A stretch of 33,408 nt of DNA. It comes from Candidatus Thalassarchaeaceae archaeon (lineage in GTDB: Archaea > Thermoplasmatota > Poseidoniia > Poseidoniales > Thalassarchaeaceae). The position numbers and the translations under genes were made by a program. The notes under the pieces were generated by a model. The model saw nothing but the letters and a program-made list of their open reading frames with translations. It was not told the origin of the DNA and made no database searches. The DNA lies in contig JASLKH010000074.1 in assembly GCA_030747675.1 (NCBI GenBank), forward strand, positions 1 through 33,408. The letters run 5' to 3'. Below, in pieces: positions 18,563-31,224 of this stretch (positions within the stretch are counted from its first letter, which is position 1; each line of letters begins with the position of its first letter).

Positions 18563-19534
18563 TTACAAGTCTTGTAATGGAGACATGGCTCTACGTGCCA
18601 AAACACGTAGCATTTTTCTTCTGTATGACGGGGGGAAGTACGTGTTACTTACTGGCTTTACAGCCTTGCGAATTGCTTCTGAAAGTGCTACAACACTTTC
18701 CTTCCCATTCCATTCCAACAATGCTTCCATAGCGAGTTTGGAGTGGTCACCAGGGATACTTTCACATCCAGTTGTAGCAATACGCAATTCCGATATTCTC
18801 CCCCCTTTCAATTTCCATGCTGCAGCAACTCCTGCTTCAGGGAAATCCCACGTTTCCCGCAACCTCAATTTTTGATAGCCACCTACCCATTCATTTACAT
18901 CATCTGGTAGGGTAATATGAGTGACCATTTCACCTTTTTCCAAAACATTTCGAGTCATTCCATCTAACTTGAAAAATTCAGAAAAAGGCATCGCGCGTGC
19001 ACCTGCTGCACCTGCAAGGTGAATTGTAGCATTTAGAGCGATAAAAGCAGCAGCAAGGTCGGCTTGATAGGTGGCAACACATAATGTATTTTGGTTTGGA
19101 ACAACTCGACAATCGGCGTTGGTATCACAGTCACATTTGTGACACCAATCTATACTGCGCCTCCATTCTTCAGTTTGATTGTACCAGTAGCACCGAGTAT
19201 CTAAGCAGATATTCCCTCCAACTGTGGCAGATCTACGAATCATTACACTTGCGATTGTGGCAGCAGTCTCTCGAAGAAGTGGGTGTATAATCTCGGATTC
19301 AACTAAGTCTTGGATCCGAACCATTGCTCCTACAATTGTGGTGGATAGAGTATTTAATTCCTGAACACCAGCTAAGGAAATAACATCTGATTTTGGATTT
19401 AATTTCCATTTGTAATTTGGTAGTAGATCAGTGCCCCCGGAAATCCAATCGAAGTCGTCCAATTCAGATGCCAATGTCAATGCTTGAGAGAGATTTGAGG
19501 GGGTGTGTAAAGTGAAGGGGGGCATCCGCATCAC
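18563..19534 (-). CDS. Molybdenum hydroxylase FAD-binding subunit (CoxM/HcrB-like) with Cys-rich insert
   Basis: WISGGTDLLPNYKWKL, SATVGGNICLDTRC, insert CYWYNQTEEWRRSIDWCHKCDCDTNADCRVVPNQNTLC; overlaps the large-subunit stop by 4 nt. Confidence 0.92.
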   Translation of the reverse strand: MMRMPPFTLHTPSNLSQALTLASELDDFDWISGGTDLLPNYKWKLNPKSDVISLAGVQELNTLSTTIVGAMVRIQDLVESEIIHPLLRETAATIASVMIRRSATVGGNICLDTRCYWYNQTEEWRRSIDWCHKCDCDTNADCRVVPNQNTLCVATYQADLAAAFIALNATIHLAGAAGARAMPFSEFFKLDGMTRNVLEKGEMVTHITLPDDVNEWVGGYQKLRLRETWDFPEAGVAAAWKLKGGRISELRIATTGCESIPGDHSKLAMEALLEWNGKESVVALSEAIRKAVKPVSNTYFPPSYRRKMLRVLARRAMSPLQDL

Positions 19535-22335
19535 GAATCACCTCTGTGTCGGCGCTCAATGTGCGACCAAGCCTTCGCCGCTCGTTTCTTTGGGTCTGCC
19601 AAATCTTCAGCCGTGGGTGTTACAGCCTCTCTCCATCCCTTTTTTTGTTCGGACATGGGCACATCAGGGTCAAACCCAAAGAGAACACCATTGACATAAG
19701 AGGTTCGATCTTCTTGAATATCTCTCAGATGGTCACGAATCGCATGCTCTTCTGCACGCCCCGTTAATTTTTCTTGTAATGGTCCAGGCTCAAACCTTGG
19801 TACTGGTAAATCAAGAGGGTCTTCGACACCTAATTTCTTACATTGTTTCTCGATTTTTTTGTGAAGTCGGTCAGGTGTCACAGGCAATTCATCAATTCGA
19901 ATACCAATTGCATCGTATATTGCGTTACAAACAGCCGGCAAGATTGGTAGCAACGGCCCCTCGCCAGCTTCCTTTGCACCAAATGGGCCTTCGGGGTCAT
20001 TACTTTCAACAATGATTGGAACGACATCGGGCATTTCGTGAACACTCATGATTTTGTAATCAAGTAAATCAGGATTCATCAGATTGCCTCCTCTTCCATA
20101 TTTCATTTCTTCAGAAAGGACTTGCCCCATGCCCATGTGGCATGAGCCAATGATCTGTCCTTTTACTGCTAGGGGATTGAGTGCCTTTCCGCAATCATGT
20201 GCGGCCCAAGCGTTCACAACCTTGACGAAACCAGTTTCGACATCAACTTCAACTTCTGCAACATATGCTGAGAATGAATATGCTGGGGCTAATCCAGCAG
20301 CGGCCCCTTTGTGGATTCCACCCATAGGGGGCGTTCGGTAAGCCCCTGATGCAATCAGTGACCCCACATCAGCCTGTGCTTTGTGCACCGCTTCTAACCA
20401 AGAAACTCCAATGGCAGGGTCATGCTTGTAGTAAATTCTTCGATCACCAATGACTAACACATCGGGGTGATAACCCGTAATTTCCCAAGCGGCCTTCATC
20501 ACTTTGTCTCTTAATTCACAAGCCGCGCGAATCGCCGCATTACAATTCATGAAGGTCACACGGCTGGAATATGATCCCAAATCGACAGGTGATGTATCAC
20601 TTTCTTTACTTCGAATCCGTATCATATCTAATGGTAAAGCCAGAACTTCTGAAACTGCTTGTGCCACCGCTGTATCGCTCCCTTGCCCAATATCTGCTGC
20701 ACCAGTATGGACTGTTACTCCTCCATCCATATCACATTGTAAATGTACAGTAGCGTGGGGGAAATTTTCGGGATCCCAATGAATAGGTAACCCTGATCCT
20801 GAAATGAAGAACCCACATCCAACTCCAATTCCTCGCCCCAGAGGTAAGTTTCGGAATTTTTCATTCCAACCAGATTGCTCTTTTACTTTCGCTAGGCACT
20901 CTCGCATTCCCGTGCTTGTTATTCTAAATCCTGTTATTGTTCGACTGTGTGGTGGTAATAAATTTGCGAGTCGGAAAGTCATCGGGTCGACATTCATTTG
21001 CTCAGAAACAGCATCAATTCCAACTTCTACTGCGCATCGGCTGTTCACCGCACCATGGCCTCGCATTGCACCGCTTGCAGGTTTGTTTGTCCATACTCTG
21101 GCTCCTGTATAATTGAAACCTCCGATTTCATATGGTGCTGTATGCAAAACACCATTGTAATAGGTTGTTACATGCCCAAATGAAGCAAACGCTCCCCCAT
21201 CGATAAGTGCATCAGTTTCGATACCAGAGATACGCCCTTCATCATCTGCAAATACCCCCATTTGGATTCGTGATGGATGCCTTCCTCGATTAATCCAATA
21301 CACTTCTTCCCTGTCGAAATTAATTCGAACAGGCCGTCCGCATTTCCGAGCTAGAATCGCTGCGCACATTTCATGTGGAAATGGGTCCGATTTACCGCCA
21401 AATCCTCCTCCCACAAAGGTCCGATGGACATTGATTTGATGCATTGGAATATCTAATACAGCAGACAATCCTCTGTGGAGATAATGGGGGACTTGTTGAG
21501 GGGTCCAAACTGTAAGCCGTCCTGATGGGTCCCAATGAGCAACTACCGCATGTGGTTCAGTAAATCCATGATGTAGACCTGCAGTTTCCCAATCTGCTTC
21601 ATGTTTGAATGGCGCAGAACCCATTGAATCGAGATCTCCAAACTGTTGGAAAACACGTTTCTGAACATTCGATTCACCAATGTGATATTTCCCGCGATCG
21701 TGGATTGGATGTTCTGAATCGTTCAAACCATCTTCCATGTCATGTATACTTGGCAGAATTTCATATTCAACTGAGATAGCATTCATTGCTTCAATTGCAG
21801 TTGCTTCATCAATTGCACAAACACACGCCACTAAGTCTCCAACATGCCTAACCTTGTCTTGAGCCATCGCATGTTCATCTTTAGTTACAGGAAGAACACC
21901 GAATTTGTTTACAGAATCCTTTCCAGTTGCCACCGCAAAAACCCCATCCATTGCTTCAGCAACAGATATGTCGATTGATTTAATCTCAGCATAATGATGT
22001 GGAGAACGTAGTATCTTCCCTATTAGTTCGCCAGGTAACCTGATGTCATCGCCATATTGTGCTTGCCCAGTCATCTTCCAGTTAGAATCAACCAAAGGAA
22101 CGGGTTTACCAATTGTGGTACCTGTGATATGTTTGTCATGGACATGGGGTCCTCGTGGTTGTTTTTTCCATCCACCAACCGATTCAGGAACATAATCCAA
22201 ATCTTGGAGTTTTGAATGAGGTTCAGAACCACCTGATCCTGGGACGCCGAAGTCTTGTTGCCCTGCAATCCGTTTCCCATCAGTGCGTTTCTTGTCCTTC
22301 CCTTTACCGGGCGCTTGTCGATATCCTTTGCCCAT
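19531..22335 (-). CDS. Molybdenum hydroxylase molybdopterin-binding (large) subunit, xanthine oxidase/HcrA-like
   Basis: GGGFGGKSDPFPHEM, SGAMRGHGAVNSRC, GAADIGQGSDTAVAQAVSEVL, GSYSSRVTFMNCNA, GPFGAKEAGEGPLLPILPAVCNAI (catalytic Glu region). Confidence 0.94.
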   Translation of the reverse strand: MGKGYRQAPGKGKDKKRTDGKRIAGQQDFGVPGSGGSEPHSKLQDLDYVPESVGGWKKQPRGPHVHDKHITGTTIGKPVPLVDSNWKMTGQAQYGDDIRLPGELIGKILRSPHHYAEIKSIDISVAEAMDGVFAVATGKDSVNKFGVLPVTKDEHAMAQDKVRHVGDLVACVCAIDEATAIEAMNAISVEYEILPSIHDMEDGLNDSEHPIHDRGKYHIGESNVQKRVFQQFGDLDSMGSAPFKHEADWETAGLHHGFTEPHAVVAHWDPSGRLTVWTPQQVPHYLHRGLSAVLDIPMHQINVHRTFVGGGFGGKSDPFPHEMCAAILARKCGRPVRINFDREEVYWINRGRHPSRIQMGVFADDEGRISGIETDALIDGGAFASFGHVTTYYNGVLHTAPYEIGGFNYTGARVWTNKPASGAMRGHGAVNSRCAVEVGIDAVSEQMNVDPMTFRLANLLPPHSRTITGFRITSTGMRECLAKVKEQSGWNEKFRNLPLGRGIGVGCGFFISGSGLPIHWDPENFPHATVHLQCDMDGGVTVHTGAADIGQGSDTAVAQAVSEVLALPLDMIRIRSKESDTSPVDLGSYSSRVTFMNCNAAIRAACELRDKVMKAAWEITGYHPDVLVIGDRRIYYKHDPAIGVSWLEAVHKAQADVGSLIASGAYRTPPMGGIHKGAAAGLAPAYSFSAYVAEVEVDVETGFVKVVNAWAAHDCGKALNPLAVKGQIIGSCHMGMGQVLSEEMKYGRGGNLMNPDLLDYKIMSVHEMPDVVPIIVESNDPEGPFGAKEAGEGPLLPILPAVCNAIYDAIGIRIDELPVTPDRLHKKIEKQCKKLGVEDPLDLPVPRFEPGPLQEKLTGRAEEHAIRDHLRDIQEDRTSYVNGVLFGFDPDVPMSEQKKGWREAVTPTAEDLADPKKRAAKAWSHIERRHRGDS

Positions 22336-22344
22336 TCAATCTCC

Positions 22345-22944
22345 TCATTTCGAGCTACCAGGTGGCAACGAGGGTTCATCGGGGCCCAATGGGTGTGGAT
22401 CTGATTTTGGATTAGTTGGATCTGGAGAAATTGTCCCACTTTGTTTCATTTCAGCAGCCATTTCGACAGCATCAACAATTTGTTGGTAACCAGTACATCT
22501 GCAAAGGTTACCCTCTATGGCGCACTTGATTTCATCACGTGTTGGCATTGGATTTACTTCTAGAAGTGCTGAACTAACAATCAAGAATCCAGGTGTACAG
22601 AATCCGCATTGACTTCCACCTGCTTCAGCAAAGCATTTCTGAATTGGATTGAGGTGATGCCCATCTGCTAAGCCCTCTACTGTGGTAATTGCAGCTCCAT
22701 CATGCTCTTTGGCAAGACAAAGGCAACTCAATCTGGGTTCACCATTCACCAAAACAGCACAACATCCACATGTCCCCATGTCGCAACCACGCTTGACACC
22801 TAATGTTCCAACTTGGTCCCTAAGGACATCGAGGAGGATAGCATTACTTTCAATCAGATGCTCTTGTTCGACTCCGTTCACATTTACATTCCAAGGAACT
22901 TTTTGTGCCCCCGGAAGCATCGGAACTCGGATGTGAATGCTCAT
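22345..22944 (-). CDS. Molybdenum hydroxylase 2x[2Fe-2S] small subunit (CoxS/HcrC-like)
   Basis: GCDMGTCGCCAVLVNGEPRLSCLCLA and GGSQCGFCTPGFLIVSSALL...CAIEGNLCRCTGYQQIVDAV. Start taken as MSIHIRV at 22944; ORF is open to 23004. Confidence 0.94.
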   Translation of the reverse strand: MSIHIRVPMLPGAQKVPWNVNVNGVEQEHLIESNAILLDVLRDQVGTLGVKRGCDMGTCGCCAVLVNGEPRLSCLCLAKEHDGAAITTVEGLADGHHLNPIQKCFAEAGGSQCGFCTPGFLIVSSALLEVNPMPTRDEIKCAIEGNLCRCTGYQQIVDAVEMAAEMKQSGTISPDPTNPKSDPHPLGPDEPSLPPGSSK

Positions 22945-22984
22945 GCGACCACCCCCACCGAATCCATAGAGCCCTTTGATGATT

Positions 22985-22997
22985 CGCCCGTAGGGCG
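22985..22997 (+). repeat. Perfect 5-bp inverted repeat with GTA loop in the divergent intergenic region
   Basis: CGCCC-GTA-GGGCG, between the 2Fe-2S subunit start (22944, minus) and the CD36-like start (23049, plus). Confidence 0.45.
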
Positions 22998-23048
22998 GCT
23001 GCATTCGTTAGCGGATTACTTATGCCCTGTGCCCTGTGGTGGGGTGTC

Positions 23049-25784
23049 ATGAACACTAAGGTAATCGTGATGGCAGTTGTTGGGCTGATGCTTATTGGAA
23101 CCAATATGGCAGTAGTATCTCCTATGGTAATGTCGAATACTGAAGCCGCTCTTGAGGATGCCACAGTTATGACTGATGATACATGGGAAGACGATAGTTG
23201 GCTAAGCTCGACACTTGAACGAGTATTTTTTGCATGGGATTTGACAAATCCTAATGATGCTAAGGCTGACTCTGATGGCAATGGTGCAGAGGATTTAGGA
23301 AACGCTGTATTTGAGCGAAATGGCCCTTTTATTTACAATGTTACAGCAAAACGTGAAGTAATTTCACACAACGAAGATCAAGGTACATTGACGTATTCTG
23401 AATTCAATGAGTATGAATGGTGTGCAGAATGCACTTGGTCCGATGAGAATGGCACTGAGCATGCATCGGTGTCAGGTACAACGCCCATCACTAACATCAA
23501 CATACTATATGATACTCAAAGAATTGGTGCTTTAGGATCAGTGATTGCTTCAGGACCAGATATCGTGAAGGGCACATTCACTAAGAAAATGTTAGAAATC
23601 GATATGGCTGAGCGTGCACCTAGTATTTGGACTGTTGAAGAATTAAATTCAGATCTTTCAGTATATGCATCCAACGAAACTCTTGTTGGCAATGGTCCCC
23701 AACAGTATCGTGACTTAGGCGCAAAGATACACGTTCTCACTCAAAACAGCCGTTACGATGAAGAAAATTTGACAACATTCATGATGACTGCATTCAATGA
23801 ATCTATCCTGAATCATATCTTTGACAATGTCACCGATAATTCAACTGGATTGTGTATCGCCTTAACTTGCAACCTTGGCCCGATGCTCATCAAGAGAATG
23901 GGGGCCCCAGATACACAAAACTCTCTTGCCCGTGCCGAATTATATGGCTATACTGTATTCAATAATGATACCACAGTCAATCAATCTGCTACAATAATGG
24001 CTGATGAAGTCGTGTACGATGCCATAAATACACGTTATACTCAAGCCGGATATTTTTCCTCTGATTTACGCTCAGAATCTGATGCTAATTTGAAGAGTAG
24101 AATGGTAGAGATGGCAGGAATATCTGAAAATTTCGATGAAACCAAAATGCAGAATTTATTATTTGGAATGAATGGCAATGCTCCTGTTGGGATTCTGGTT
24201 TGCGACTCAAATGGATTCCTTTGTGGAGTTACCAATCTACTTCTTCTCGCAATAGATTTCAATTTGCCAGAAATCATGTCGCAATATGGACTTGGATTAA
24301 CCTCCTTGGAAAAAGTTGCAGGCGATTGGGTGAGTAAATGGCAGTTAGCTGAACGAAATTATGAGATGATTCTTTCAGATGGTTCAGGTTTTATTCATGC
24401 AGATGAATGGGTCTTAGAGGCGTTTGGTTCTAAAGACCCAGTCGATGGGAAATGTATTCCGTTTGGATTGAACATTGGTGTTGCAAGTTTGAATGGTTTG
24501 TGTTTGTGGGAATCCACCTATAATCCAGGTAATCCAGTTGATTTAGATCCAGCACAAACACATAACATATTGTATGGTGACTACGGATTGACCACTGACT
24601 TCGCTACAGATTTCTTGTACGGAGAAATTAGTGGGATGTCAGTACCTATGAATGAGCAACTTCAACCTGAAATTGGAGGCACTCAACACGCTTGGGACGA
24701 TGCATTTGTGGCCGGTTTATATGATATTGATTTGAATGGAGCAATGGCTCTTCGTTGGATGCTTTTCGATACACTTTTCAATGATAATATTGGTGGCATA
24801 ATTGAGAGCCAATATGGTGTTGAACCTGTTCTTACAATGGAAGTTAACAATTGGCTTTTGGGATGGGAAGATCCTCTTGTTGGCTGGGCATCTTTAGAGG
24901 ATAATGCGACTTACTATGGTTCGGATGGAATTGTTAATGACGGTGCAAAATCAATTTACACGGTTTATACTGGTGCAAAAGAAGGGTTACCAGGGCAGTT
25001 GTTGTTTGAATGGGATGATAACGACACTCCTGAAAACATGTCTGATGACGTCCCTCTTTGTGATTTCAAACCGGCTCCTGAAACGTCGCCTTGTTTCCTT
25101 TCATGGCGCTCTTCTGCTCGAGATGATGCAACCTATGGGCTACTAGGTACAGTTGATCAGGCAAATGTTGTTGGTACTGTATTCCCTGCAGGTGAATCTG
25201 CTCGAATGAGTTTAGCAGGATATGCAGTTGCAGAATCGGTTGTTGTTGGAAAGGATTCAATTGAAGGTATTGATACTTACAAGCATTCGATTAATGTTCC
25301 ACCGTTGGAGAACCCAATTCAGGCCAAGTTGCTTGGTCAAGAATCACTTCTCGATGTGTTTCCCAATGCCCTTCCTGTGTATTTCGGAGGTGAAGTTGAG
25401 ATGCAGGTTGAACCAAGTGTGAATGCAGTGCTTGGCCTTGAAATGAATTCGTATTTCTTTATTGACACACGTGGAATTAGTCGAAGTATCGGATTGACTG
25501 CTCCTACAGAAGGGGATTTACAACCAGTATTCCAAATTTCAATCGCAAAATCAATTGGAGATGACCCAGATGATGTTGATGCGTTCAAGGACAAGGTGAT
25601 TCATAATCAAAGACCCTATGCATATTGGACCAATTTCGATACAGGTGCAGATGCAATGTTTATCGATCAGGTTACGTTTTTAATTTGGCTAATCGCTGAC
25701 TTACTGCTACTTGCTGCATTGGTTATGGCAGTTCGTGGCGATTCTGATTTAGAAGAGCCTTGGACTGAAACAGAAGAAGAATGA
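23049..25784 (+). CDS. CD36/SCARB-like two-TM ectodomain protein
   Basis: N-terminal TM VIVMAVVGLMLIGTNMAVV; RVFFAWDLTNPNDA...GNAVFERNGPFIYNVTAKREVISHNEDQGTLTYSEFNEYEW; NNWLLGWEDPLVGW; LQPVFQISIAKSIGDDPDDVDAFKDKVIH; C-terminal TM FLIWLIADLLLLAALVMAVRG. Order, spacing and two-TM topology match the CD36 family. Confidence 0.75.
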   Translation: MNTKVIVMAVVGLMLIGTNMAVVSPMVMSNTEAALEDATVMTDDTWEDDSWLSSTLERVFFAWDLTNPNDAKADSDGNGAEDLGNAVFERNGPFIYNVTAKREVISHNEDQGTLTYSEFNEYEWCAECTWSDENGTEHASVSGTTPITNINILYDTQRIGALGSVIASGPDIVKGTFTKKMLEIDMAERAPSIWTVEELNSDLSVYASNETLVGNGPQQYRDLGAKIHVLTQNSRYDEENLTTFMMTAFNESILNHIFDNVTDNSTGLCIALTCNLGPMLIKRMGAPDTQNSLARAELYGYTVFNNDTTVNQSATIMADEVVYDAINTRYTQAGYFSSDLRSESDANLKSRMVEMAGISENFDETKMQNLLFGMNGNAPVGILVCDSNGFLCGVTNLLLLAIDFNLPEIMSQYGLGLTSLEKVAGDWVSKWQLAERNYEMILSDGSGFIHADEWVLEAFGSKDPVDGKCIPFGLNIGVASLNGLCLWESTYNPGNPVDLDPAQTHNILYGDYGLTTDFATDFLYGEISGMSVPMNEQLQPEIGGTQHAWDDAFVAGLYDIDLNGAMALRWMLFDTLFNDNIGGIIESQYGVEPVLTMEVNNWLLGWEDPLVGWASLEDNATYYGSDGIVNDGAKSIYTVYTGAKEGLPGQLLFEWDDNDTPENMSDDVPLCDFKPAPETSPCFLSWRSSARDDATYGLLGTVDQANVVGTVFPAGESARMSLAGYAVAESVVVGKDSIEGIDTYKHSINVPPLENPIQAKLLGQESLLDVFPNALPVYFGGEVEMQVEPSVNAVLGLEMNSYFFIDTRGISRSIGLTAPTEGDLQPVFQISIAKSIGDDPDDVDAFKDKVIHNQRPYAYWTNFDTGADAMFIDQVTFLIWLIADLLLLAALVMAVRGDSDLEEPWTETEEE

Positions 25785-26531: not shown

Positions 26532-29500
26532 ATGAGTGATGATGAATCTGGTCGAGGGAGATTTCGAAATATTGTAATTCCAACTCAGACCAAGAAATCA
26601 AATGAAGCCTATATTCCGGGTTTTGCAGTTAATTCAATCACCGAATTACAACATCAATCAAACGCTCAATTCGGGATGATTATTTCTCTTGGTGGAGGAG
26701 TCATTGCACTTTTACTTGGAATATGGACCTTCATGGTCACAGATGCTGATGCGGACATTACATTTTTGTGGCTTTCTTTAGGCTCAATCGTTGCAGTTGC
26801 AGTAACATTTTCTTTAGTTGAAATTCAATATCGTCGACAAGGTATTCTTTCTATAATGCATGATTACTTACTTTCATTCGGACTTCTTTTCGGCATGTTG
26901 GGTAGTTTTTGGATCAGTCGCTATGGTCTTTTCTTTATTTGTGGGCATGGTGCAGATTCGTCAGGCTTCTGCCAAGGAGATACCGGGGCAGAAGATTGGC
27001 TTCCTGGTGCATGGGGTATCGTTGCTCAATCGAGTTTTGTGGCAGTCATTGCAGTTTTGTCTTGGTATTATACAAAGAGAGTAAATGGTTCGACCCTCCC
27101 TCGTTTGGTTCTTGTTCTAGCACCTTTAGCGATACTGATTATTGGAGCCGATGTATGGGTTGCTTGGGCTGAAGGGGATGCAGGCTTACCCCTTGTAATC
27201 GGTGTACTTTTGATGACCACGCTGTCGATGAGTTTGGCATCGATGAGCGATAGGAGCCCCCTCTTTCTTACTGCGGCCGCAATTTCATCCATTGCACCAT
27301 TTATTTACGAGATGAATTTGGATGGCCCAGCAGGTTCAGGTCTCTCGATGCTGACTATGATTGTCATAGTTCAAGGTATATTTGCAGCAAGCCCAGGTCT
27401 CTCTCGAACAATGATTGAGAAGGGTTCTGTCGGTTTAGTTGGCATTGTTATCTTAGCTCAATGGGTTAGTGGTAGTATTGAGGCAGATTTCATTCTGATT
27501 GAGCCAATTCAAAATAGTTGGATAACTTTGAATTTGATGCTCTGGCTTTCATTGCTTGTTGGCTATTTTTGGCCAGTACATATGCGCAGAGTCCCTTCAA
27601 TGCCCATTGGCTTAGGATTTGCTTTGTTACTCATACCAACTCCGGGAAGTATGCTTGCTTGGTGTTTAGCAATATTATCATTCATTTACATGCTGACTGT
27701 ACCTCAAACACGTCGATGGGTTGCAGATTGGACATTTATCGCAATGATGTTTGCATGGTGGGCAGGTGGATGGATATCATCTTTTGAGTCCGACATTGCG
27801 TCATTAGATCCAATTTTTATAGCAATCCCACCACTTGCATTGACAATAACTGGATATTTCGCAACGCGTGAAAATAGGTTATCATCCAACGCATTAAATA
27901 TTGGAATAATCATGATTATTCTATCGAATGAATTACTTTCAGGAACGGAACCTTGGTTACCACTAGGTGTTGCAACATCTCTTCTCCTCATGGTCTGGGT
28001 TCAAGCCCGAGAAGCAGAATCAATAATCGCTGCAGGAGACGCTGCTAGATTAGAAGCAACAGGGAGAATGGCACTTGCATTAGTTGGAATATTGGTTTTA
28101 GAACTAGCAAACAGACTGACAATCCCTTGGATTGATGTCAATGGCATACATATTGAGGCCTTGATATTGGCCACTGCATTGTATGCAATAGGAAGAGGCT
28201 TGCGGGGTGTTGAAGTAGACATTGGTCACTTACTTGCGAAGATTAGTGCAAGGACTACAAGTATACCCGAATGGGACCCCAATACAGCATCTTGGGTTTA
28301 TCGTCCATCGGTGATTTCTGAGAAAATGTCTACAGTTCGATTTGGGCCAGCGGCACGACTTGGATTAGCCGGCCCGCTCTTGCTTTTTTCTTTGGCCCTG
28401 TCAAGAAGTGGCGACCCTTTCACTGATCACTATCTGGTGGTTCTATTGGCATTACCAATCACCCTTCTTCTAAGAGAAATATTGCTAGAATTACCGAACG
28501 ATGACAAGACTCGAGCCGCAGGTATCTGGACACTTTTCTTAATTGCCTTACCAAGTTCTTTGGCTTTGCACTTCACAGCAGACAGTTCCTTAGATGAGAA
28601 TACAATTCCAGCATCTCTATTGCTTTTTGATTCGTTATTATTGATGGGCCCCATTCTTGGAGATGTTATGCTGCATCGCCGTGGACTTGAAGGCGAGAAA
28701 GACATGAAGGCAGGATCAATTGCATTGTTAGGATTACTCGCACTCGCAATTCTTGACACAAGTGGCGGTTTCCTTGCTCTACCGTTGTTTGCAATTGTTT
28801 TGATGCGTGGATTCATGCACCGCCAGGGACCTGCAATTCATTGGTTAGGATTCGCATGGATATTCTGGATTTTAACAATGGATTTGGAAAGTACAAGTTC
28901 ACTAATTGCACTTGTACCCGAAGTGACGGTGTTGGTCGAAACATCATTCTTTGATTTACCACGATGGGCAGGTCTTGGCCTTATTGCTATTGGATTACCT
29001 TCTCTCTATGGAGCGATACAGGATATTCGAGCGACTGCTAAGGGCCTTGAAGTTGATGAGCACTCTCATCCAATATTAGCCCCAACCATGTTCATTATTG
29101 CAGGAGTGTTCTTATTAATTCCCGATGCACATTGGCTGTCAGTAGGCATTATTATTTTGGCTTCAATAGGGGCATGGTTAGTAGGAAAAATGGGATGGTT
29201 TTGGATTGCTAGTCCGTTGCTTTTCATCAGTTTGATTTACGCAGGAGAAGTTGAATGGGGAGGCGCTATTGGAGAAACTATACGTTTTGCTGCTGCAGGT
29301 ACATTCGCATTTAACGCAATCCTTTTCATCACAAATTCACGCGAACAATTTTTCAAAAATTCAGATGATTCATGGGACGAGATTCGACAAGGAAATCTAG
29401 TTGATGTTATTACAATTGGTGCGTTTATTGCTAGCCTTATCGCAGATGATTACTTCTTTGGCATTGCATTGTTGCTGGGTGCACTTTTGATGACAAAATA

Positions 29501-30395
29501 TGCACATGGGCGTAGGTGGTCGAATTTCCTTGTATTCTGGTTACCACTTGCACACAGTTGGGTTATCTATCGTATTCTTGCAGATCCTTTACCAGAAGCC
29601 AATGTTGAGATTGCAGGCCTGGTTCTATTGGTTGAATCAATTCTTCTAACATGGTCCTCATGGACGATGTATGATTTTGGTTGGGATGATTTTTCTGATG
29701 ATGAAGTATTGGAACACGCTAACACATCAGGTTGGCTTGGTGCTGTATTATTTATTCCAGCAGCTTGGTTTACTGTAATTGATATGCCAATGTGGATGTT
29801 TGGAGGTATGCTTTGTGTGCATTCTGCAGGTCAAATGGCACTAGGATTCCAGCGAAATGAAAGTTGGAGGCGAATATATTCTTTAATCGGAGTTGCAGTT
29901 GGCTTCTTGATTATTGCAATTGATATTGAAAATGGTATCATGCGTGGTGTGATGCTAGTATTGGCCAGCTTAACGATGATGATGCAAGGTATTCTCTACA
30001 TGACGGAAGCAGGAATAAAAATGGCTGGAACAGGTGAGGGTGACGTTGTTGATGAAGTGGAAGAAGCTGAACCAAAAACCCGTAAGAAATTGGACCTCAC
30101 CTCGTTGTTGTCAATACCTGATCCCGTTCTAGATACGAAGGATGACGTCGAAGAAGGAGATGTGGACCCTTCGGAAGAAATTGAATTATCACTTCCTAGA
30201 GCGAAACCAGTTTCGGCAGAACCTTTGTTGGAAGAAAGAATCCGAACTGAGCACTACGATCTCGAATTACCAGTTGATGTTCGAGATAGAATTGGAACTG
30301 TAATTACCTCTACACCTCACGAAGGATTCCATCCAGTGATACGATGGGACCAATGGGGACAAGTCATACTGGATTGGGAGCCAATAAGCAAATAA
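26532..30395 (+). CDS. Very large polytopic membrane protein (1287 aa) of unknown function
   Basis: Single uninterrupted ORF of near-continuous hydrophobic segments, with a hydrophilic C-terminal tail of about 110 aa ending HPVIRWDQWGQVILDWEPISK. Confidence 0.85.
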   Translation: MSDDESGRGRFRNIVIPTQTKKSNEAYIPGFAVNSITELQHQSNAQFGMIISLGGGVIALLLGIWTFMVTDADADITFLWLSLGSIVAVAVTFSLVEIQYRRQGILSIMHDYLLSFGLLFGMLGSFWISRYGLFFICGHGADSSGFCQGDTGAEDWLPGAWGIVAQSSFVAVIAVLSWYYTKRVNGSTLPRLVLVLAPLAILIIGADVWVAWAEGDAGLPLVIGVLLMTTLSMSLASMSDRSPLFLTAAAISSIAPFIYEMNLDGPAGSGLSMLTMIVIVQGIFAASPGLSRTMIEKGSVGLVGIVILAQWVSGSIEADFILIEPIQNSWITLNLMLWLSLLVGYFWPVHMRRVPSMPIGLGFALLLIPTPGSMLAWCLAILSFIYMLTVPQTRRWVADWTFIAMMFAWWAGGWISSFESDIASLDPIFIAIPPLALTITGYFATRENRLSSNALNIGIIMIILSNELLSGTEPWLPLGVATSLLLMVWVQAREAESIIAAGDAARLEATGRMALALVGILVLELANRLTIPWIDVNGIHIEALILATALYAIGRGLRGVEVDIGHLLAKISARTTSIPEWDPNTASWVYRPSVISEKMSTVRFGPAARLGLAGPLLLFSLALSRSGDPFTDHYLVVLLALPITLLLREILLELPNDDKTRAAGIWTLFLIALPSSLALHFTADSSLDENTIPASLLLFDSLLLMGPILGDVMLHRRGLEGEKDMKAGSIALLGLLALAILDTSGGFLALPLFAIVLMRGFMHRQGPAIHWLGFAWIFWILTMDLESTSSLIALVPEVTVLVETSFFDLPRWAGLGLIAIGLPSLYGAIQDIRATAKGLEVDEHSHPILAPTMFIIAGVFLLIPDAHWLSVGIIILASIGAWLVGKMGWFWIASPLLFISLIYAGEVEWGGAIGETIRFAAAGTFAFNAILFITNSREQFFKNSDDSWDEIRQGNLVDVITIGAFIASLIADDYFFGIALLLGALLMTKYAHGRRWSNFLVFWLPLAHSWVIYRILADPLPEANVEIAGLVLLVESILLTWSSWTMYDFGWDDFSDDEVLEHANTSGWLGAVLFIPAAWFTVIDMPMWMFGGMLCVHSAGQMALGFQRNESWRRIYSLIGVAVGFLIIAIDIENGIMRGVMLVLASLTMMMQGILYMTEAGIKMAGTGEGDVVDEVEEAEPKTRKKLDLTSLLSIPDPVLDTKDDVEEGDVDPSEEIELSLPRAKPVSAEPLLEERIRTEHYDLELPVDVRDRIGTVITSTPHEGFHPVIRWDQWGQVILDWEPISK

Positions 30396-30396
30396 T

Positions 30397-31224
30397 TCAT
30401 TGTCTCCAACTCGAAGAATATGAATCAACGCCTTTCAAATCAGCGATAATTTCGGCAAGTACTGCTATGGCAATTTCTTGAGGAGATTCGGCTCCAATAT
30501 TAATGCCGATTGGACAAATGACAGAATCAATTGCCTTTTGTGGAATTCCAGAATCCAATGCAGATTTCTCGAATGCGAGCCACTTTGATTTAGAACCGAT
30601 ACATCCAATTCTCGGCCTTTGCTCACATCTTTGTAGTAATCCAATCAGAAGAGTTTGATCTATTTCCCAATCATGACCCAATAGCAGCACATGTGAAAAA
30701 CGGCTTAGTGATTCAGTTGTTTCACGCGACAAGAATTCATTTGGTTGCGCTGCAACACATTCCTCTGCGTCAGGCCACAAGTCTTCATTAGCATATTCTG
30801 AACGCGTATCAAGTACAGAAAAATTCCAACCTAGAGAAGCACTTGCATCTGCAATTGCCTGAGCACAATGCCCCCCTCCTGCCAAAAGAACGTGAGGCAT
30901 TGGATGGATGATTTCCATAGCCACGGTTACTATTCCACCGCACAAGCTGTTCAATGGAGTCCCAATTTTTCCTTTTGACTCACGTTGGAGTTGATATGTT
31001 TCAACACGTCCTTCGCCAGTGCTCAAAATCTCACGAAGATGATTCAGAACTTTTGCTTCGAGACCGGCTCCACCAACTGTGCCAAACATCTCCGCACTGG
31101 TGAGCGCCATATGTGCACCAGGCTTTCCTGGAACGCTACCCTGCGCATTAATCACACTTGCTAGAGCAACAGTTTCTCCTTCTTGAAGGCGTCCTGTAAC
31201 CCATTCTAGAACTCGCTGTGTCAC
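30397..31224 (-). CDS. xdhC: XdhC/CoxI-family molybdoenzyme accessory protein
   Basis: VALASVINAQGSVPGKPGAHMAL, GTVGGAGLEAKVL, Rossmann motif HVLLAGGGHCAQAIADASASLGWNFSVLDTR, PIGINIGAESPQEIAIAVLAEI. Apparent GTG start at 31224. Confidence 0.92.
   Translation of the reverse strand: MTQRVLEWVTGRLQEGETVALASVINAQGSVPGKPGAHMALTSAEMFGTVGGAGLEAKVLNHLREILSTGEGRVETYQLQRESKGKIGTPLNSLCGGIVTVAMEIIHPMPHVLLAGGGHCAQAIADASASLGWNFSVLDTRSEYANEDLWPDAEECVAAQPNEFLSRETTESLSRFSHVLLLGHDWEIDQTLLIGLLQRCEQRPRIGCIGSKSKWLAFEKSALDSGIPQKAIDSVICPIGINIGAESPQEIAIAVLAEIIADLKGVDSYSSSWRQ

Follow-up and report, generated by a model that had tools for sequence, protein, structure and literature searches.

A CD36-family protein with a predicted helical tip insertion in Candidatus Poseidoniales (Marine Group II archaea)

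Fat uptake in animals depends centrally on receptors of the CD36 family, which, to our knowledge, have been regarded as eukaryotic and mainly animal. The CD36 ectodomain is traversed by a cavity that contains palmitate/stearate and opens at the membrane-distal helical bundle (PMC5052687); in the insect relative SNMP1, blocking the tunnel impairs delivery of a lipidic ligand (PMC4912623). In mycobacteria, LmcA was reported to resemble both LIMP-2 and CD36 (DALI Z scores of 11–12; PMC8972800), and a limited homology of PgfA to CD36 has been remarked on (PMC9678360).

Here we describe a 911-residue protein encoded in a 33,408-nucleotide stretch of DNA from a Candidatus Thalassarchaeaceae archaeon (contig JASLKH010000074.1 of assembly GCA_030747675.1; the whole stretch is referred to as the window). 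It truly belongs to the CD36/LIMP-2/SR-BI superfamily, which is thereby represented in Candidatus Poseidoniales (Marine Group II archaea). The initial annotation of the gene had presented CD36 proteins as essentially eukaryotic, but a prokaryotic CD36-type fold already had a precedent in LmcA/PgfA (PMC8972800, PMC9678360). What is new is therefore an archaeal branch of the CD36 family with a very large tip insertion, and what was known is the prokaryotic CD36-like fold, from LmcA. Full-text literature searches returned no paper describing an archaeal CD36-like family within the library covered, and automatic annotation may already label such proteins by way of their above-cut-off match to the Pfam CD36 profile, PF01130.

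Homology to CD36 and LIMP-2

The gene and the features of its product are given in Table 1. An in-frame ATG upstream, at 23022, would yield an alternative product of 920 residues; the listed start is preferred because same-genus relatives begin there (alignment A1). The peptides originally singled out as CD36-like, 'RVFFAWDLTNPNDA...FERNGPFIYNVT', 'NNWLLGWEDPLVGW' and 'EVEMQVEPSVNAVLGLEMNSYFFID', are all found in the 911-residue translation, and the N-terminal and C-terminal transmembrane segments, the latter with a short tail, are seen as hydrophobic segments at residues 3–29 and 869–899. Hydropathy places such a segment at the N-terminus in 81 entries and at the C-terminus in 80, of the 83 supplied by two overlapping alignments. 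One membrane helix at each end of a single large ectodomain is the arrangement given both by hydropathy and by the predicted models of the window protein and of a short relative. Within 'WLLGWEDP', residues W602, L603, G605, W606 and D608 are invariant in the family alignment. The ectodomain had also been called sequon-rich; the enrichment holds but is modest, with 11 sequons in the window protein and a family mean of 10.4 versus 7.2 in shuffled sequences. The source genome encodes an STT3 oligosaccharyltransferase domain. At G000:C50 (L158:197-9772, - strand), an STT3 domain is part of one uninterrupted frame of 3191 codons, which is uncommonly long for a protein of the AglB type.

Table 1. 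Features of the CD36-like gene and its product, in window coordinates
Feature	Coordinates	Strand	Basis
CDS, CD36/SCARB-like protein, 911 aa	23049..25784	+	open frame; PF01130 E=5.4e-9; family profile positions 3-863 of 864
N-terminal transmembrane helix, ~residues 3-27	23055..23129	+	hydropathy; model helix 3-39
CD36 N-terminal block, residues 12-132, 'FFAWDLTNPND...FERNGPFIY...'	23082..23444	+	PF01130 positions 3-118; reverse-search alignment with LIMP-2; strands 53-65, 88-108, 113-124
Large helical insertion (predicted), membrane-distal tip, ~residues 171-585	23559..24803	+	strand-free in model; LIMP-2 alignment gap; low conservation, variable length
Part of insertion missing from natural 621-aa relatives, residues 171-445	23559..24383	+	gap in L146 and L141 versus window protein
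'WLLGWEDP' motif, counterpart of LIMP-2 'LLWGYKDE'	24852..24875	+	family invariants; reverse-search alignment with LIMP-2 LLWGYKD
Beta-barrel, C-terminal part, residues 594-835	24828..25553	+	model strands; collinear LIMP-2 blocks two and three; PF01130 positions 133-257, matched as a second stretch in relatives
C-terminal transmembrane helix, residues 867-896	25647..25736	+	hydropathy; model helix
Short acidic tail, residues 897-911, 15 residues	25737..25781	+	translation; low model confidence

The product matches PF01130 with a score of 35.5 bits against a curated cut-off of 26.5, which, as a profile comparison, is far above chance. The same profile is matched by all 39 aligned relatives at E ≤ 0.01 (best E = 1.6e-20) and gave zero matches at E ≤ 0.001 in 14 control genomes, which made up the coverage outside Thermoplasmatota. 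In the reverse direction, an archaeal-only profile searched against 177,635 distinct PDB sequences returned LIMP-2 at the top (E = 4.7e-6) and CD36 (5lgd) at E = 9e-4, in up to three collinear blocks, of which the second and third are individually weak. LIMP-2/CD36 again came first when this search was repeated with alignment A4. It was the family profile alone that gave PDB matches; the single window protein found nothing among PDB sequences with phmmer and had zero matches in an NCBIfam search. Coverage of PF01130 by sequence comprises blocks 3–134 and 133–257 with an insertion between them, and positions 258–463 are matched by structure only, not significantly by sequence. In several relatives, positions 51–134 are followed some 400 residues later, in one frame, by positions 133–257. 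The first alignment was too diverse for the pattern scan, and a narrower one was substituted.

The AlphaFold model of the window protein has a pLDDT of 82 and a pTM of 0.75. Searched against the PDB with Foldseek, LIMP-2/SCARB2/CD36 chains take the first 13 places (E = 5e-5 to 5e-3, each with probability 1.00); the next ranks are four entries of mycobacterial LmcA, and the first unrelated match has E = 0.65. The TM score of the full-length model against LIMP-2/CD36 is only ~0.4 by target. A natural 621-residue relative (L146) was modelled to remove the effect of the insertion, and this model aligns with the whole LIMP-2 ectodomain over ~540 columns (E = 4.6e-13, probability 1.00, TM 0.61 by target) and with CD36 at E = 1e-10. 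Identity to LIMP-2/CD36 in the structural alignments is ~11–14%. A search of a viral structure library gave nothing below E = 0.2. The predicted fold thus matches LIMP-2/CD36 above all other PDB entries, as had been anticipated for a CD36 relative, and the models indicate a CD36/LIMP-2-type beta-barrel fold in the archaeal family. Three independent tests (forward profile, reverse profile and predicted fold) agree in pointing to remote but unambiguous CD36 homology, and together they uphold the archaeal CD36/SCARB-like identity first assigned to the protein.

The membrane-distal helical insertion

The protein was correctly described at the outset as about twice the usual length; the cause is an insertion, not a duplication. 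As judged from the model, the doubled length comes from a ~400-residue, all-helical and length-variable insertion in the membrane-distal helical tip, with the anchors and the beta-barrel kept. Residues 154–589 are modelled as helices and loops with no strand of at least three residues, and the barrel strands lie at 53–150 and 594–835. The reverse alignment places ~420 archaeal profile positions in a gap that spans 28 residues in the LIMP-2 construct. We take this gap to be approximately LIMP-2 residues 127–156, counted from the glycosylated N45, in which case it would include H150.

Conservation within the ectodomain is lowest in the insertion, with a mean pairwise identity of 28% for residues 171–290, 34% for 291–445 and 41% for 446–560, compared with 40–52% in the barrel blocks, and the insertion is 250 to 472 residues long in the aligned set. 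Across the family the head ranges from ~120 to 470 residues with the barrel kept, and L146 is entirely without residues 171–445. A constant barrel that carries heads of varying size amounts to a natural experiment on the tip domain.

A head with these properties could belong to a surface adhesin or particle receptor that attaches to algae or particles through their proteins or glycans, with the barrel as a scaffold only. The insertion being both the least conserved and the most length-variable part (28–41% versus 40–52% identity) is in keeping with such a role, as is the binding of proteins (PfEMP1 and beta-glucocerebrosidase) by CD36 and LIMP-2 through the same tip (5lgd, 9fjf; PMC5052687), and adhesion has been inferred to be important in Poseidoniales (PMC6461757). 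However, the greater conservation of the barrel suggests that it does more than hold the head, and we regard a solely adhesive function as quite improbable. Adhesion is compatible with lipid transfer, and both can be true together.

Distribution, descent and gene neighborhood

Of 340 genomes of the class, 256 carry the gene according to the family profile, as do 31 of the 38 that are of good quality. In a sample of 390 genomes from the phylum, all 117 matches fall within Poseidoniales, with both families of the order represented; by the same profile, neither the rest of the class nor the other Thermoplasmatota sampled yielded a member. A third family of the class, which we take to be Marine Group III, has zero matches among the genomes listed. 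The named carrier records all belong to Marine Group II/Candidatus Poseidoniales or marine euryarchaea and include a complete chromosome (CM001443.1) and single-cell genomes. Some genera are without the gene (genus g4, 0 of 10 among the genomes listed), and several genomes have two copies, with a divergent pair in genus g1. In genus g1 (L045, L036, L033 and L032), the two CD36-like genes stand head to head. Zero relatives were found in the viral contigs searched, and zero matches in the plasmids searched.

Eukaryotic contamination, or a chance match, would mean that the gene is no archaeal relative of CD36, and all that speaks for it is the usual eukaryotic distribution of CD36. This explanation is refuted by the distribution: both Poseidoniales families carry the gene, and the frequency in the class, the complete chromosome and the single-cell genomes rule contamination out. 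The neighboring genes are archaeal, and the reciprocal profile and fold matches argue against a chance resemblance; we assign this explanation a negligible probability.

In a tree of 39 members, the window protein lies in a starred clade of its own family, and the two family labels (f1/f2) require three changes, compared with 12 in shuffles; one second copy from genus g1 falls inside the other family. Because the label changes are few, and given the placement of this second copy, the history is mainly vertical with ancient duplication or exchange. In several genomes (among them G073, G072, G100 and G118), family-profile matches have one in-frame stop codon near or inside them; these are possibly degraded copies, or the match may merely overrun the gene end.

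More tentatively, eukaryotic CD36/LIMP-2/SR-BI may share prokaryotic ancestry with, or stem from an early exchange with, the Poseidoniales family, and Marine Group II would then obtain algal lipids by way of a CD36-type conduit whose capture head is enlarged; we hold this combined proposal to be possible but somewhat doubtful. The archaeal branch offers an outgroup with which to root the receptor family, and it raises the question of the source of the animal receptors.

A conserved lipid-uptake operon was considered and rejected, since the upstream neighbors vary by lineage: a molybdenum hydroxylase with AIM24 or an acyltransferase; pyruvate kinase with Phe-tRNA synthetase; TctA; or AIR synthase with an esterase. 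In the window, a three-subunit molybdenum hydroxylase (18563–23004, - strand) is transcribed away from the CD36-like gene; its closest NCBIfam model is 4-hydroxybenzoyl-CoA reductase, with a score under the cut-off of that model. An XdhC-type maturation gene is located at 30397–31224, and its arrangement with the molybdenum hydroxylase is found again in related genera. Positions 26532–30395 (+ strand) encode a very hydrophobic protein of 1287 residues, apparently with many membrane segments and an acidic soluble C-terminus, which was without matches in Pfam, NCBIfam and PDB searches; its gene adjoins the CD36-like gene in some relatives too. In genus g13 and its relatives (L138:8943-9860 and similar), an SPFH/band 7 (flotillin-type) gene lies immediately 3′ of the CD36-like gene; eight loci show this order.

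Proposed function and relation to known systems

We propose that the archaeal protein is probably a surface lipid receptor or conduit, in which the enlarged head captures lipids and the barrel passes them to the membrane. Two terminal membrane helices hold an ectodomain with a predicted CD36-type beta-barrel, and the ~400-residue helical insertion enlarges the helical tip, the part that serves CD36 and LIMP-2 as binding site and entrance. The variable head might bind extracellular lipid-bearing material (algal debris, vesicles or free fatty acids), from which single lipid molecules would enter the internal cavity of the barrel and be delivered along it to the membrane, there to be activated and oxidised, or used in membranes. 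We consider this the most likely reading because of the CD36 cavity and the SNMP1 tunnel described above, and because fatty acid degradation is encoded in all Poseidoniales genera (PMC6461757). The source genome encodes acyl-CoA dehydrogenases and an AMP-binding family (acyl-CoA synthetase type) protein.

Several observations count against lipid uptake. The gene neighbors differ by lineage and form no fixed lipid-uptake operon, and the gene is missing from some Poseidoniales, despite the fatty acid degradation reported for the order as a whole. In mycobacteria the same barrel works in the export of envelope lipids, so transport could run in either direction, and its direction here, like the ligand and a functional cavity, is something that we infer.

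The protein could be a CD36-superfamily member that exports or redistributes lipids of the cell's own envelope, much as LmcA/PgfA handle mycolates or lipoglycan precursors, and that does not take up foreign ones. LmcA is the next structural match after LIMP-2/CD36, and four aligned members have weak collinear C-terminal matches to PorA (E = 0.003–0.009). PgfA binds a trehalose monomycolate analogue and acts in lipid transport in the mycobacterial periplasm (PMC9678360), unusual mixed membrane lipids have been predicted for Poseidoniales (PMC6461757), and in genus g9 the CD36-like gene is divergent to a PF01553 acyltransferase gene. However, the archaeal tip is very large and helical and LmcA is without such a tip (PMC8972800); a big, variable outer head fits the recognition of outside targets better than internal traffic, and the patchy presence of the gene speaks against an essential envelope role. 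We consider traffic of the cell's own lipids unlikely and favor the surface lipid receptor. For the latter, a CD36 branch that is widespread among the archaea most abundant in surface seawater is a concrete candidate for the capture of phytoplankton lipids, and it raises the question of lipid uptake by Marine Group II.

Membership in the PorA/LmcA family itself (PF11271, formerly DUF3068) was rejected, the best score being 17.5 bits against a curated cut-off of 29.5, and 0 of 59 genomes surveyed with PF11271 were above cut-off. Since the PF01130 cut-off is passed and that of PF11271 is missed, the archaeal family is, as far as profile scores indicate, nearer to eukaryotic CD36 than to LmcA.

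In terms of architecture, LIMP-2/SCARB2 (4f7b, 4q4b, 9fjf) and the archaeal family have in common two terminal membrane helices, short tails and a CD36-type beta-barrel ectodomain, predicted in the archaeal case, together with 'TNP/TN...GP.tY' and 'LL.GY.D'-type motifs in the same order. Identity between the two is ~12–14%, and the archaeal tip carries the ~400-residue insertion; LIMP-2 is lysosomal, whereas the archaeal protein is presumed to reside at the cell surface.

CD36/platelet glycoprotein 4 (5lgd) likewise shares the fold and topology, with the archaeal tip hugely expanded in comparison. The cysteines of the window protein are at positions 125, 128, 269, 274, 385, 392, 469, 485, 671 and 682, with none at 683–911, and the disulphide set of the C-terminal half of CD36 is thus absent. 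Cysteine is missing altogether from three of the 83 alignment entries, and the disulphide set differs even between LIMP-2 and SNMP1 (PMC4912623); for both of these reasons, its absence is treated as non-defining.

With mycobacterial LmcA/PgfA (7n3v, 7shw), the archaeal family shares a prokaryotic CD36-like barrel and the weak collinear C-terminal sequence matches. LmcA is without the three-helix bundle at the tip (PMC8972800), whereas in the archaeal protein the tip bundle is hypertrophied.
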